From: Bacteroidales bacterium
GTDB lineage: Bacteria; Bacteroidota; Bacteroidia; Bacteroidales; Salinivirgaceae
Length of the DNA stretch: 64,000 nucleotides
Assembly (NCBI GenBank): GCA_012519055.1
Contig: JAAYQU010000049.1
Location: 1 to 64,000 of the forward strand
Direction: 5' to 3'
Made by a program: the position numbers and the translations under genes. Under the pieces are notes generated by a model. It saw nothing but the letters and a program-made list of their open reading frames with translations. It was not told the DNA's origin and made no database searches. Of this stretch, positions 14,647 through 18,478 are shown one piece after another; position 1 is the stretch's first letter; each line of letters begins with the position of its first letter.

Positions 14647-16977
14647 ATGGAAAGTGAAAAACAAGTCAATTCAGGATATTACAACAAATCCGATTATATC
14701 TGGATATCGGTTGCCTCAATATTTTTGATAGTTCTTATAATCATAGGTTTAACCCGGGAAAGTGTTCAGGAGCCATATAATCAAGGGATAAATATTATTC
14801 CGAAACCCAACAGTATTATTATGGGAGAGGGTGTTTTTGAAATAAACAGAAAAACGGTTTTTGTTGTTGCAGAGAGTTTGCAAACAGTGAAAACTATAGT
14901 AAATCTGAAAAACAAGATAAAAACAGCCACTGGATTGAATTTAAAAACGGTCACTGTAAAGCCCAAATCAAATTTTATTGAGATATTTTTGGATCATGCA
15001 GACACTAATGGAACAGAGGGTTATACATTAGTAGTTAAACCAAATTTCGTAAAAGTTAGCTCTTCGGCATTAGCGGGAATTCATAATGGATTACAAAGTC
15101 TTTTGCATCTTTTACCTGCAGAAATAGAGTGTCTTAGAAAAAAGGCTACAGTTGATTGGCTTATACCTTCGGTAACAATAAACGATTCTCCCCGTTTTCG
15201 CTGGAGGGGCATGCACTTAGATGTTTGCCGTCATTTTTTACCTGTCGAGGAAATTAAAAAGCATATAGACATGATTTCCAGATATAAGCTAAATACGTTG
15301 CATTTGCACTTAACAGATGATCAGGCGTGGCGTATCGAGATAAAGAAATATCCTTTGTTGACTCAAATTGGCTCGAAAAGAATTGAGGGCGAGGGGTTTG
15401 AGCATAGTGGATATTACACACAGGAGCAGATTAAAGATATCGTTCAGTACGCAGCCGACCGATTTGTAAATATTGTTCCCGAAATAGAGATGCCGGGACA
15501 CGCTTTAGCTGCATTGTCGGGATATCCGAACCTATCGTGTACAGGAGGACCATTCACTCCGCGTATTATTTGGGGAGTGGAAGAAGATGTTTTTTGTGCA
15601 GGAAAAGAGGAGACCTTTCAGTTTTTGGAAGATGTTATTAACGAGGTGGTTACGCTGTTTCCATACGAATATTTTCATATCGGAGGCGATGAATGTCCAA
15701 AAGACCGATGGAAAGAGTGTGAACTATGCCAAGAACGTATTAAAAATGAGAACCTTAAAGATGAGCATGAATTGCAAAGCTACTTTGTAAAGCGAATTGA
15801 AAAGGTTTTGCTATCGCATAATAAAAAGATGGTTGGTTGGGATGAAATTCTTGAAGGAGGGTTGGCTTCATCTGCAACCGTAATGTCGTGGCGTGGAGAG
15901 CAGGGAGGAATAGAAGCAGCCAATATGGGACACGATGTTGTTATGACACCCGGAAGTCACTGTTACTTAGACCATTATCAAGGCTCGCCTAAGGTCGAAC
16001 CCGTTGCGATTGGTGGTATGACAACCTTAGAGAAAGTTTATAGCTACGAACCGATACCAGATAAAATAAATCCCGAAAATACTCACCATATACTCGGAGC
16101 TCAGGGAAACAATTGGTCTGAATATCTTTATAAGCCTGAGAGAGTCGATTATATCGTATATCCACGCATTTTTGCATTAGCAGAAGTTAATTGGACAACA
16201 CCAGAATTGAAAGACTTTAATTATTTTCTCATGCGACTTGATAATCATCATGTTCGTATGGATTTGAAGAAAATTAATTATCATATTCCGTTACCAGAAG
16301 GTCCTGCAAATGTAGAAGCATTTGTAGATTCTATCATTATTGCATTTACAACGTCACGAGATATAGATATTGTTTATACAACTGATGAAAGTGAACCTCA
16401 CCATAAGTCTGAGCGCTATGAAAGACCGTTGGTTTTTAAGGAAAGTGCTATTTTAAAAGTGGCAACCGTGTTAAAAACCGGTAAAACAAGTCCGGTAAGG
16501 ACAATAAATATCATTAAGCAAGAGTACGCGCCATCAGTAAAATCGGAGGAAATTACAAATGGGATAAAAGTTTCTCTAACCAATGGAATATTCCGCAAAG
16601 TAAGCGATATTGACAAAGTCAAAGAGTGGGCAGATACAACTATTGAAAATATGAACCGTTTTCATAGACTTTTTAATATAAAAAAACCTTCTGCCGCTAT
16701 TGCTACAGGATTTATTAAGATTCCTGAAAATGGTGTTTATCGGTTCTCCACAAATGCCGATCACTTTTATATAAATGATAATCTGCTGATTAACAATGAG
16801 GGAGAGGTGAAAAAATATTCCCGTAACGACGCAACAATTGCTCTTGAAGCAGGACTACATCGTGTAAAATTTATTGTTATTAATGGTATAACTGGAGGCT
16901 GGCCCCAAGCCTGGAATGGTCGCTGGTTAGATATATCAACTGACGGAAAGAATTTTACGGCTGCGGAGTTTTATTAG
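14647..16977 (+). CDS. Beta-N-acetylhexosaminidase, glycoside hydrolase family 20
   Basis: 776 aa. Removes terminal N-acetylglucosamine or N-acetylgalactosamine from glycans. A single N-terminal helix (YIWISVASIFLIVLIIIG, residues about 18-35) follows a short polar start, so it is membrane-anchored or weakly signal-like, facing the periplasm. The GH20b-type alpha/beta domain spans about 50-175. The catalytic barrel begins RFRWRGMHLDVCRHFLP, continues with LHLHLTDDQAWRIEIKKYP, and carries the catalytic pair Asp348-Glu349 in HIGGDECPKDRW. A chitobiase-type C-terminal segment (IDIVYTTDESEPHHKS) and a PA14-like tail (PENGVYRFSTNADHFYIN) follow. All key residues are present. Confidence 0.93.
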   Translation: MESEKQVNSGYYNKSDYIWISVASIFLIVLIIIGLTRESVQEPYNQGINIIPKPNSIIMGEGVFEINRKTVFVVAESLQTVKTIVNLKNKIKTATGLNLKTVTVKPKSNFIEIFLDHADTNGTEGYTLVVKPNFVKVSSSALAGIHNGLQSLLHLLPAEIECLRKKATVDWLIPSVTINDSPRFRWRGMHLDVCRHFLPVEEIKKHIDMISRYKLNTLHLHLTDDQAWRIEIKKYPLLTQIGSKRIEGEGFEHSGYYTQEQIKDIVQYAADRFVNIVPEIEMPGHALAALSGYPNLSCTGGPFTPRIIWGVEEDVFCAGKEETFQFLEDVINEVVTLFPYEYFHIGGDECPKDRWKECELCQERIKNENLKDEHELQSYFVKRIEKVLLSHNKKMVGWDEILEGGLASSATVMSWRGEQGGIEAANMGHDVVMTPGSHCYLDHYQGSPKVEPVAIGGMTTLEKVYSYEPIPDKINPENTHHILGAQGNNWSEYLYKPERVDYIVYPRIFALAEVNWTTPELKDFNYFLMRLDNHHVRMDLKKINYHIPLPEGPANVEAFVDSIIIAFTTSRDIDIVYTTDESEPHHKSERYERPLVFKESAILKVATVLKTGKTSPVRTINIIKQEYAPSVKSEEITNGIKVSLTNGIFRKVSDIDKVKEWADTTIENMNRFHRLFNIKKPSAAIATGFIKIPENGVYRFSTNADHFYINDNLLINNEGEVKKYSRNDATIALEAGLHRVKFIVINGITGGWPQAWNGRWLDISTDGKNFTAAEFY

Positions 16978-17034: not shown

Positions 17035-17057
17035 TTGTGCAAGTGCCACTTGCACAA
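17035..17057. repeat. Palindrome with 11-bp arms, possible terminator
   Basis: TTGTGCAAGTG, one C, then CACTTGCACAA, 58 nt after the GH20 stop. The arms match perfectly. AAATTATTTGG follows rather than a clean T-run, so it could be a dispersed repeat instead of a terminator. Confidence 0.6.
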
Positions 17058-17158
17058 ATTATTTGGTATCATTGTATCAGTTAAAAATTAAGCAAGCCAA
17101 ATTTTTTCTCTAAAGACTTAGAGTTTTGGTCTTTTTGGGATAGAATCGTACCTTTGTT

Positions 17159-17344
17159 TGTCCGTAGGACAACATATGATTAACCATAGGCGCAAGCCTA
17201 TGGGTGTGCTACAGCACACAACCCCACCCGTAGGGTGGCACATTGCTTTATCGCATAGTGTCGCCCTACGGGCGAAAGTCGAGGGGGGGACACCGTTTCC
17301 GTAAGATAAATCTTACGGTTAATCACATATTGTCCTACGGACAA
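17159..17344. repeat. Seven-hairpin element bounded by a long inverted repeat
   Basis: Outer arms 17159-17185 and 17317-17343 are inverted copies of each other (25 of 27 positions). Each arm end also folds on itself. In order the hairpins are: TGTCC-GTA-GGACA (17159-17171); CCATAGGC-GCAA-GCCTATGG (17184-17203); GTGTGC-TACA-GCACAC (17204-17219); CCACCC-GTA-GGGTGG (17224-17238); TCGCCC-TAC-GGGCGA (17261-17275); CCGTAAG-ATAAAT-CTTACGG (17299-17318); TTGTCC-TAC-GGACAA (17330-17344). Four of them share a GTA/TAC triloop. There is no coding frame. It could be a non-coding RNA, a MITE-like unit or a nest of REP-like repeats. Confidence 0.85.
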
Positions 17345-17351
17345 TTCCTAA

Positions 17352-17512
17352 TTCCGACCTCACTTCGATGGTTTTTGAGCCTGTGTTTCGGTGGTTATTG
17401 AGCCTGTCAAAATATAAAATCAGTGACCGTTTCCCAGTGCACCGCTCGGCTCCCACTTGTACCTTGCACCTTTTACCTTGTACCTTTCTTGCACCTTCTA
17501 CTTGTCTATCAC
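17352..17512. repeat. Degenerate intergenic repeat modules
   Basis: Carries CACTTCGATGG, GTTATTGAGCCTGTCAAAAT, CCCAGTGCACC, and the module CCTTGCACCTTTTACCTT with further degenerate copies (TACCTTTCTTGCACC, TTCTACTTGT). The same modules in the same order occur at 1786-1862. There is no credible protein here; the open frame crossing it is of repeat composition. Confidence 0.55.
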
Positions 17513-18478
17513 CTAAGATAAGTTCTCAAACTTCTCAAGCATCTGATTATTCAAACCATTTAAAAAGTCGACAACGCTCATTCGCTTTTTCCCTGCTTGT
17601 TGTAGTTCAGTGATATGATACCAACCATCTGATACTGCAACTTTTATGCTGTCTTTGTTGCTTACTACTGTACCTATTCCTTTATTGTTGTTTGAATTTT
17701 CATAAAAGCCGTCGTATATTTTTATTCCAACTGTTTTGTCAGCCAAAACCGTCTCTGTATAAGCACCCGGATATGGGTTTAATCCTCTAATGAAATTGTG
17801 AATTACCTCGCCCTTAGCGTTCCAATTAATACGACAAAATTCTTTGTCTAATTTCGGCGCGTTTTTTAATTTTTCGTTCTCCAAAACATTTTGCGGAGTC
17901 TCCTTATAGCTACCCTTAACAATTGATTCGACCGTGTGATGTAGAACCTTAGCGCCCTCAATCATCAATTTATCGTGCAGTGTTCCAGCGTTGTCGGTGG
18001 GGAGTATAGGAATCTCTTTTGAGTCGATAATGTTTCCTGTATCTATTTCGTGTTTCAGGAAAAAAGTTGTTACACCTGTTTTTGTTTCACCGTTGATAAT
18101 AGCGTGGTTTATAGGCGCAGCTCCACGGTATTGCGGTAACAAGCTCGCATGCAGATTGATAGAGCCTAAGCGTGGCAGACTCCAAACTGATTCAGGCAAC
18201 ATTCTGAATGCCACAATTACCGCCAAATCAGGGTTTAAGAGCGCCAAAGCTTCTATAAAATCGCTACTTTTCAGATTTGTTGGTTGCAAAACCGGAAGAC
18301 CTACCGATTGAGCAAACTCCTTAACCGGAGTGGGAGTGAGCTTCTGTCCGCGTCCGCGAGGTTTATCGGGAGCTGTAACAACAGCAACTATATTAAAATG
18401 TTGGTGCAATATTTTAAGTGACTCCACAGCAAAGTCGGGTGTTCCCATGAACACTATCTTAAAATTATCAGCTGTCAT
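17513..18478 (-). CDS. fmt: Methionyl-tRNA formyltransferase
   Basis: 321 aa, the usual length. Transfers the formyl group from 10-formyltetrahydrofolate to Met-tRNA(fMet) for initiation. The N-terminal formyltransferase fold opens KIVFMGTPDFAVESL. The signature with the catalytic residues is present as INLHASLLPQYRGAAPINHAIING, read in two parts (HASLLPQYRGAAP and NHAIING), and the folate-site Asp lies in HEIDTGNI. The C-terminal OB-like tRNA-binding domain starts around residue 205 (CRINWNAKGEVIHNFIRGLNP). It lies 7 nt downstream of the GH16-like gene on the same strand and is probably cotranscribed with it. Confidence 0.96.
   Translation of the reverse strand: MTADNFKIVFMGTPDFAVESLKILHQHFNIVAVVTAPDKPRGRGQKLTPTPVKEFAQSVGLPVLQPTNLKSSDFIEALALLNPDLAVIVAFRMLPESVWSLPRLGSINLHASLLPQYRGAAPINHAIINGETKTGVTTFFLKHEIDTGNIIDSKEIPILPTDNAGTLHDKLMIEGAKVLHHTVESIVKGSYKETPQNVLENEKLKNAPKLDKEFCRINWNAKGEVIHNFIRGLNPYPGAYTETVLADKTVGIKIYDGFYENSNNNKGIGTVVSNKDSIKVAVSDGWYHITELQQAGKKRMSVVDFLNGLNNQMLEKFENLS

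Follow-up and report, generated by a model that had tools for sequence, protein, structure and literature searches.

The TnpA-Y1 proteins have been split into subclasses (Quentin et al., 2018; PMC6006769), and in the open-access literature class 2 RAYTs are described with REPs, TIRYTs with TIRs and subclass 1.1 with IS200 ends. The TIRYTs mostly fall in subclass 2.1 (20 of 26 examples; PMC6006769). Subclass 1.2 is described as having the motifs [D]H[IV]H and Y---Q--HH, a length of about 148 aa, a low copy number and a distribution in Bacteroidetes and Cyanobacteria, with no REPs and 'generally' no IS200-type terminal structures (PMC6006769). We found no ends described for this subclass in the open-access literature, ISfinder and subscription papers being outside the scope of the search.

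The element studied here lies in a 64,000-nt stretch of DNA from a Bacteroidales bacterium (the window), in a 535-nt gap between two convergent genes, a GH20 beta-hexosaminidase gene (14647-16977, + strand) and fmt (17513-18478, – strand). An initial annotation of the sequence had reported seven perfect-stem hairpins in this non-coding gap, with the outer two in arms that are inverted copies of each other. A script scan of the window bore this out. Seven perfect, non-overlapping hairpins are found within 17158-17345, and the remaining 190-nt bins of the window hold 0.9 perfect hairpins on average and in no case seven. The outer arms are inverted copies over 31 nt (17158-17188 and 17314-17344) with 90% complementarity. 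The element is non-coding, and it folds much more stably than dinucleotide shuffles on both strands, with z = –11.4 on the + strand and –9.6 on the – strand. The palindrome that had also been pointed out nearby is real (GTGCAAGTG-C-CACTTGCAC, 17037-17055, 9-bp arms and a 1-nt centre); it lies between the GH20 gene and the element and occurs once in the genome. Degenerate repeats are present around the element at 17364-17407 and 17463-17501.

The whole element is 187 nt long (17158-17344) and contains no gene. Its inverted arms have the order A-B-C-D//D'-B'-A'. In the left arm, read on the + strand, the outer hairpin A (17158-17172, TTGTCC-GTA-GGACAA) has a 6-bp stem and a GTA loop, which is of the GNA class. 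It is followed by a linker, CATATGATTAA (17173-17183), that leads into the CC foot of hairpin B. The family consensus of this linker ends in TGAATAACC, and it is a candidate recognition or guide sequence. Hairpin B (17184-17203, CCATAGGC-GCAA-GCCTATGG) has an 8-bp stem and a GCAA loop. Hairpin C (17204-17219, GTGTGC-TACA-GCACAC) is found in the left arm only, and the inner hairpin D (17224-17238, CCACCC-GTA-GGGTGG) again has a GTA loop. After a short centre (17239-17260), the right arm, read on the – strand, begins with its inner hairpin D' (17261-17275, TCGCCC-TAC-GGGCGA), whose loop reads GTA from the arm's own 5' side. A variable spacer (17276-17298), hairpin B' (17299-17318, CCGTAAGA-TAAA-TCTTACGG) and the outer hairpin A' (17329-17345, ATTGTCC-TAC-GGACAAT), an inverted copy of A, complete the arm.

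The element is not a one-off. A search for other copies, as the initial annotation had proposed, found five full copies in the host genome (2.7 Mb, 53 contigs), namely the window copy and those on contigs C14, C1, C6 and C26, with identities of 87-93%, as well as truncated copies and fragments. At this level of identity, recent mobility is not supported. The order A-B-C-D//D'-B'-A' is common to all five and to the transposase unit described below. The suggestion that REP-like hairpins had inserted into each other was dropped, since the whole order behaves as one unit.

All five full copies are intergenic. The window and C1 copies lie between convergent genes, the C6 and C26 copies lie in co-directional gaps, and the C14 copy lies 320 nt upstream of an inorganic pyrophosphatase-like gene. 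Variation among the five falls mainly in the spacers, with 24 of 50 columns variable, versus 4 of 91 columns in the stems (Fisher p ~1e-9). Intergenic placement, the window copy's position between convergent genes, and conserved stems with drifting spacers are what a host-maintained bidirectional terminator or mRNA-stabilising repeat would show, the arms having once been mobile and now serving gene expression in the manner of REP-like domestication. However, there are only five copies, they occupy co-directional as well as convergent contexts, and the conservation of linker and loop between species tracks tnpA and not the downstream genes, so that we regard such a role as the main explanation as quite unlikely.

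Several copies sit close to other repeats. Degenerate intergenic repeats of the ACCTTGCACCTTTTACC type, also present in the window at 17463-17501, are fused to or found next to the truncated copies at C16:26796, C6:30147, C35:36014, C47:1198 and C13:10419. The C14 and C1 copies sit within a larger repeat of ~515 nt (C14:13771-14285, L026; C1:33813-34349, L027) with terminal inverted repeats of ~25 nt (TTAATTAGGGTTCACTGAAAAAG), and this larger repeat resembles a MITE in its own right, with the element as its cargo. The C6 copy (C6:58372-58740, L028) shares the left part of the larger repeat and diverges in its right flank. The longer flanks shared by the C14, C1 and C6 copies are thus explained by their location inside the larger repeat, and these three may have been carried along instead of moving independently.

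We also compared the junctions of the copies. The left junctions share a T-run/TTGTC, and no consistent target-site duplication was found in the flanks of the five copies. When set against the C6 copy, the locus C36:26263-26377 (L203) looks like a paralogous empty site. It reads TTTTTTGTC and then ATATACTAAG, and the C6 copy has TTTTTTGTC at its left junction and TTTTTGTCATGTACTAAG at its right, perhaps a short duplication. This single case, which includes the T-run, hints at insertion at or near TTTTTGTC, which is seen on both sides. In a congener (G002), a GH20 fragment is followed by a 342-nt gap and fmt, and this gap, compared with 535 nt in the window, contains no arm. Alignment of the flanks of the G002 gap with those of the window was no better than with shuffles and yielded no base-exact empty site. 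This syntenic comparison therefore supports the absence of the element from this gap and says nothing of the exact junction.

The host genome contains a single Y1 (HuH) transposase gene (Y1_Tnp, PF01797), on contig C21, and one half of the element lies on either side of it, in like order and orientation. One half lies at C21:69902-69990 (positions 156-246 of a 301-nt query), tnpA, encoding 150 aa, at C21:69999-70448, and the other half at C21:70456-70543 (positions 59-147 of the query). From hairpin A to A' the C21 unit is 641 nt. The 187-nt window element aligns to both of its ends, with a few bases in place of ~450 nt of gene, and in the alignment of the copies with this unit the place of the short centre is taken by tnpA. 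Hairpin C is also found in the C21 unit, in the arm past the tnpA stop codon. Because the element matches both ends of the unit and the gene is missing, it corresponds to the transposase unit without its gene. Together, these data make it very probable that the element is a non-autonomous, REPIN/MITE-like derivative of a Y1/HuH single-strand transposase unit of TnpA-Y1 subclass 1.2. Of the three candidates offered by the initial annotation, a MITE-like unit and REP-like hairpins were both close, the element being a gene-less Y1 derivative with REP/REPIN-like arms, and a structured RNA was not the best reading.

The C21 tnpA is intact, and its HuH pair and catalytic Tyr are conserved. It contains DHIH at residues 52-55 and Y114-Q118-H121-H122, and both the HuH and the Y-x3-Q-x2-HH motif are invariant in 22 homologues. 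The Y-motif reads YIKNQREHH and not the Y[IV]xxNP of RAYTs. With NCBIfam models, the protein scored 49 bits against the IS200 equivalog (cut-off 55) and 24.6 bits against the RAYT model REP_Tyr_transpos (cut-off 80). Among solved structures, those nearest to an AlphaFold model of C21 TnpA (pLDDT 91) were TnpA-DNA complexes of ISDra2 and IS608; the complex of E. coli RAYT with REP (4er8) matched too. By signature, size and phylum the predicted protein fits subclass 1.2: the HuH motif, the Y-motif, the length of 150 aa and the low copy number, with one Y1 gene in the genome, all agree with the published description. The published statement that REPs and terminal structures are lacking does not agree, given the arms around these loci. 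Since membership in the subclass rests on protein sequence, the arms correct a description and do not exclude membership.

A DNA search of 59 relatives showed that none carries the element sequence. By sequence search alone the family would therefore appear to be a one-off, and a structural model was needed. In relatives from the same order, the arms that flank subclass-1.2 genes have unrelated letters and a common design consisting of hairpin A with a 3-nt loop, ~11 nt ending in TGAATAACC and a GC-rich hairpin B. After a spacer comes another short hairpin, D, that adjoins the gene, and the other flank is an inverted copy. In an alignment of 23 such arms (A2), 92.9% of cells were paired and there were 100 double changes versus 30 in shuffles. 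The rows of A2 had been picked for having hairpins, so independent tests were needed.

For this we used a covariance model (R1) of one arm, comprising hairpin A, the TGAATAACC linker and hairpin B, that was trained without the host genome. In 140 kb searched, R1 found both arms of the window element, the left (A, linker and B; 17159-17203, + strand) with 33.1 bits and an E-value of 1.9e-7 and the right (B', linker and A'; 17299-17343, – strand) with 26.4 bits and an E-value of 1.7e-5. A chance arrangement or a decayed repeat without function, a reading that could draw on the degenerate repeats around the element, is hardly credible in view of this independent match by a cross-species model, the five full copies, the identity to the ends of the tnpA unit and the covariation reported next.

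We then collected 80 subclass-1.2 genes from GTDB genomes, which gave 75 independent loci with full flanks; one R1 training arm alone recurs in this set. A forward arm was present within 250 nt upstream of the gene in 57 of the 75 loci and a reverse arm within 250 nt downstream in 56, the median distance of the downstream arms from the gene end being 54 nt. Inverted arms were found on both sides in 49 loci and at least one arm in 71. An alignment of 150 arms, which was fitted to the model and hence leans towards its structure, had 96% of cells paired, 561 double changes versus 156 when shuffled and a score of 0.812 versus 0.239 when shuffled, and every slid structure failed on it. The initial annotation had taken stems that vary under a fixed loop as a sign of selection on structure, and the arms of other species uphold this view. 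Hairpin D is outside the model and had a stem of at least 6 bp in 42% of arms versus 2.2% when shuffled, mostly 18-26 nt after B. In the linker columns of alignment A4, T34 was present in 149 of 150 arms and the two C residues of CC in 149 and 147.

Arms also tend to occur where the gene does. In a survey of 247 genomes of the order, in which 25 candidates per genome were scored, arms were present in 80 of 113 genomes with the gene versus 30 of 134 without it (odds ratio 8.4, uncorrected for phylogeny). Two Bacteroidetes MAGs whose tnpA is 81% identical to that of C21 keep the upstream arm, and their D hairpin is altered and still paired. In four Actinobacillus loci (L123, L141, L178 and L180) the arms around a subclass-1.2 gene are reversed, with A adjoining the gene and B outside, and their loops are mostly not GNA.

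These loci bear on whether the element could have nothing to do with Y1 transposition, its association with tnpA being incidental, and be an ordinary MITE of an insertion sequence of the DDE type. It is short, its inverted ends are imperfect, it has no ORF and a moderate copy number, and three copies share flanks of the larger repeat with its ~25-nt terminal inverted repeats, all as such a MITE might. A DDE-transposon MITE is recognised by short TIRs, target-site duplications and a match to a DDE element, but here the ends match a Y1 unit and no consistent duplication was found among the copies. The two halves flank the only Y1 gene of the genome, and arms of unrelated sequence do likewise in the 49 doubly flanked loci from other species. 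We consider the DDE reading very improbable and retain that of a gene-less derivative of the Y1 unit.

The hairpin loops have a polarity. In a model-free count of loops read towards the gene, hairpins near tnpA had 127 GNA versus 8 TNC loops, and those farther out had 6 versus 10. Hairpin A loops were GNA in 71% of the 150 cross-species arms, and G-U pairs made up ~3% of paired cells in the alignment. In DNA, mini-hairpins whose GNA loop is closed by a G-C pair are exceptionally stable (PMC4686876 and references therein). The recurring GTA and TAC loops of the window hairpins are this GNA motif seen from two strands. The GNA loops and the scarcity of G-U pairs favour selection on single-stranded DNA and give a prediction of the strand that is read in each arm. 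We infer from this that the arms are single-stranded-DNA recognition ends.

Could the hairpins instead be selected as RNA, with the element transcribed as a regulatory or stable non-coding RNA? Its extreme folding energy, its strong stem covariation and its position at the 3' ends of two genes would suit such a role. However, both strands are equally foldable, the contexts of the copies differ in their genes and the design follows tnpA on both sides in inverted form. Neither the window nor six relative loci matched Rfam above gathering scores; at a permissive threshold there was nothing for the window, and there were sub-threshold chance matches in the six relative loci. DNA rather than RNA is indicated by the GNA mini-hairpin loops, known for their stability in DNA, by G-U pairs in so few cells, by the inverted symmetry and by the position around a HuH transposase gene. 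A structured RNA is accordingly a very unlikely reading, and single-stranded DNA ends of a transposase unit remain the one that we prefer.

Gene-less inverted pairs of ~190-225 nt were present in all four other genomes examined (G199, G232, G241 and G222). In one of these (G199), which contains two tnpA units, the left arms of two short inverted pairs match these units. In two others (G232 and G241) the short inverted pairs match the arms of a tnpA unit in their own genome. Other arrangements of arms were observed as well. Tandem arrays with a period of ~70 nt are found at L145:2144-3019, with about a dozen arms, and at contig C17:6-265 of G040. G199 also contains six back-to-back arm pairs of ~161 nt (L097-L102) whose A hairpins face each other across ~70 nt, a further dispersed layout distinct from that of the gene-less unit. 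Such tandem and back-to-back sets resemble REPs forming BIMEs or REP clusters.

We propose the following mode of action. Each arm would fold into DNA hairpins on the strand that reads GNA once the locus becomes single-stranded, for instance as the template of the lagging strand. A TnpA dimer supplied in trans would bind the arm hairpins and pick the cut position by means of the conserved linker beside the foot of hairpin B. The TnpA Tyr would then cleave, and rejoining of the ends would allow the intervening DNA to be copied or moved. Because the gene would not be needed in cis, the 187-nt copies could spread to sites between genes, as RAYT-dependent REPINs do. Once settled between convergent genes, a copy may in addition play a passive role, as a terminator or as a structure at the ends of mRNAs.

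Taken by itself, the window copy is a modest member of this family; what is of interest is the architecture around an orphan transposase subclass. By assigning ends to a subclass described as lacking them, the arms also give it a mode of action that can be tested. They identify one origin of the GC-rich intergenic palindromes in many Bacteroidota that are easily taken for terminators or RNAs, and the recurring GNA loop opens strand-specific recognition of single-stranded DNA to a cheap biochemical test.

Of the known systems, the REPtron/REPIN system, in which a RAYT (TnpA-REP) gene has REPs on its flanks and REP doublets form hairpins, is alike in that a single-copy Y1 transposase gene is flanked by inverted palindromes and that the same palindromes are found at dispersed intergenic sites, both in tandem arrays and as inverted pairs lacking the gene. 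By analogy, mobilisation in trans is the natural reading here also, and REPIN-like hitch-hiking would then not be confined to class 2 RAYTs. The two differ in that the transposase here is of class 1 (subclass 1.2) and not a class 2 RAYT (TnpA-REP), and in that no GT[AG]G foot lies beside the palindrome, the family linker before hairpin B being TGAATAACC. GTAG does occur in hairpin A of the window copy, but only through the G that follows its GTA loop, and the loop in other members is GAA, GCA or GGA. With at least two hairpins per arm, the TGAATAACC linker and GNA loops, the unit is, at 187 nt, longer than a REPIN.

The IS200/IS605 elements of subclass 1.1, such as IS608 and ISDra2, have the nearest relatives of the transposase by sequence and fold. 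They have DNA hairpins near both ends, and PATE-like gene-less derivatives are conceivable. The ends of IS608 and ISDra2 are directly oriented subterminal hairpins; IS200/IS605 elements insert 3' of a fixed tetra- or pentanucleotide with no target duplication and transpose through single-stranded circles. By contrast, each end here is an inverted arm of several hairpins, and the geometry of the cleavage chemistry would have to be different; the copy number is low and the protein scores under the IS200 equivalog cut-off. TIRYTs/TIRtrons are Y1 genes flanked by long inverted repeats, some of which are dispersed repeat families (Di Nocera et al., 2013; PMC3733652). They are mostly of subclass 2.1 with a GGGGWSAS motif, and the arms here have neither. 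In the published account of subclass 1.2 itself (PMC6006769) no paired arms are described, whereas most members tested here have them. On balance we lean towards the idea that subclass 1.2 is a third single-strand palindrome replicator beside IS200/IS605 and REPIN/RAYT, one whose inverted multi-hairpin arms, with GNA DNA mini-hairpins and the TGAATAACC linker, co-diversify with the transposase across Bacteroidota, occur in reversed orientation in Pasteurellaceae and give rise to dispersed elements without the gene in many genomes.
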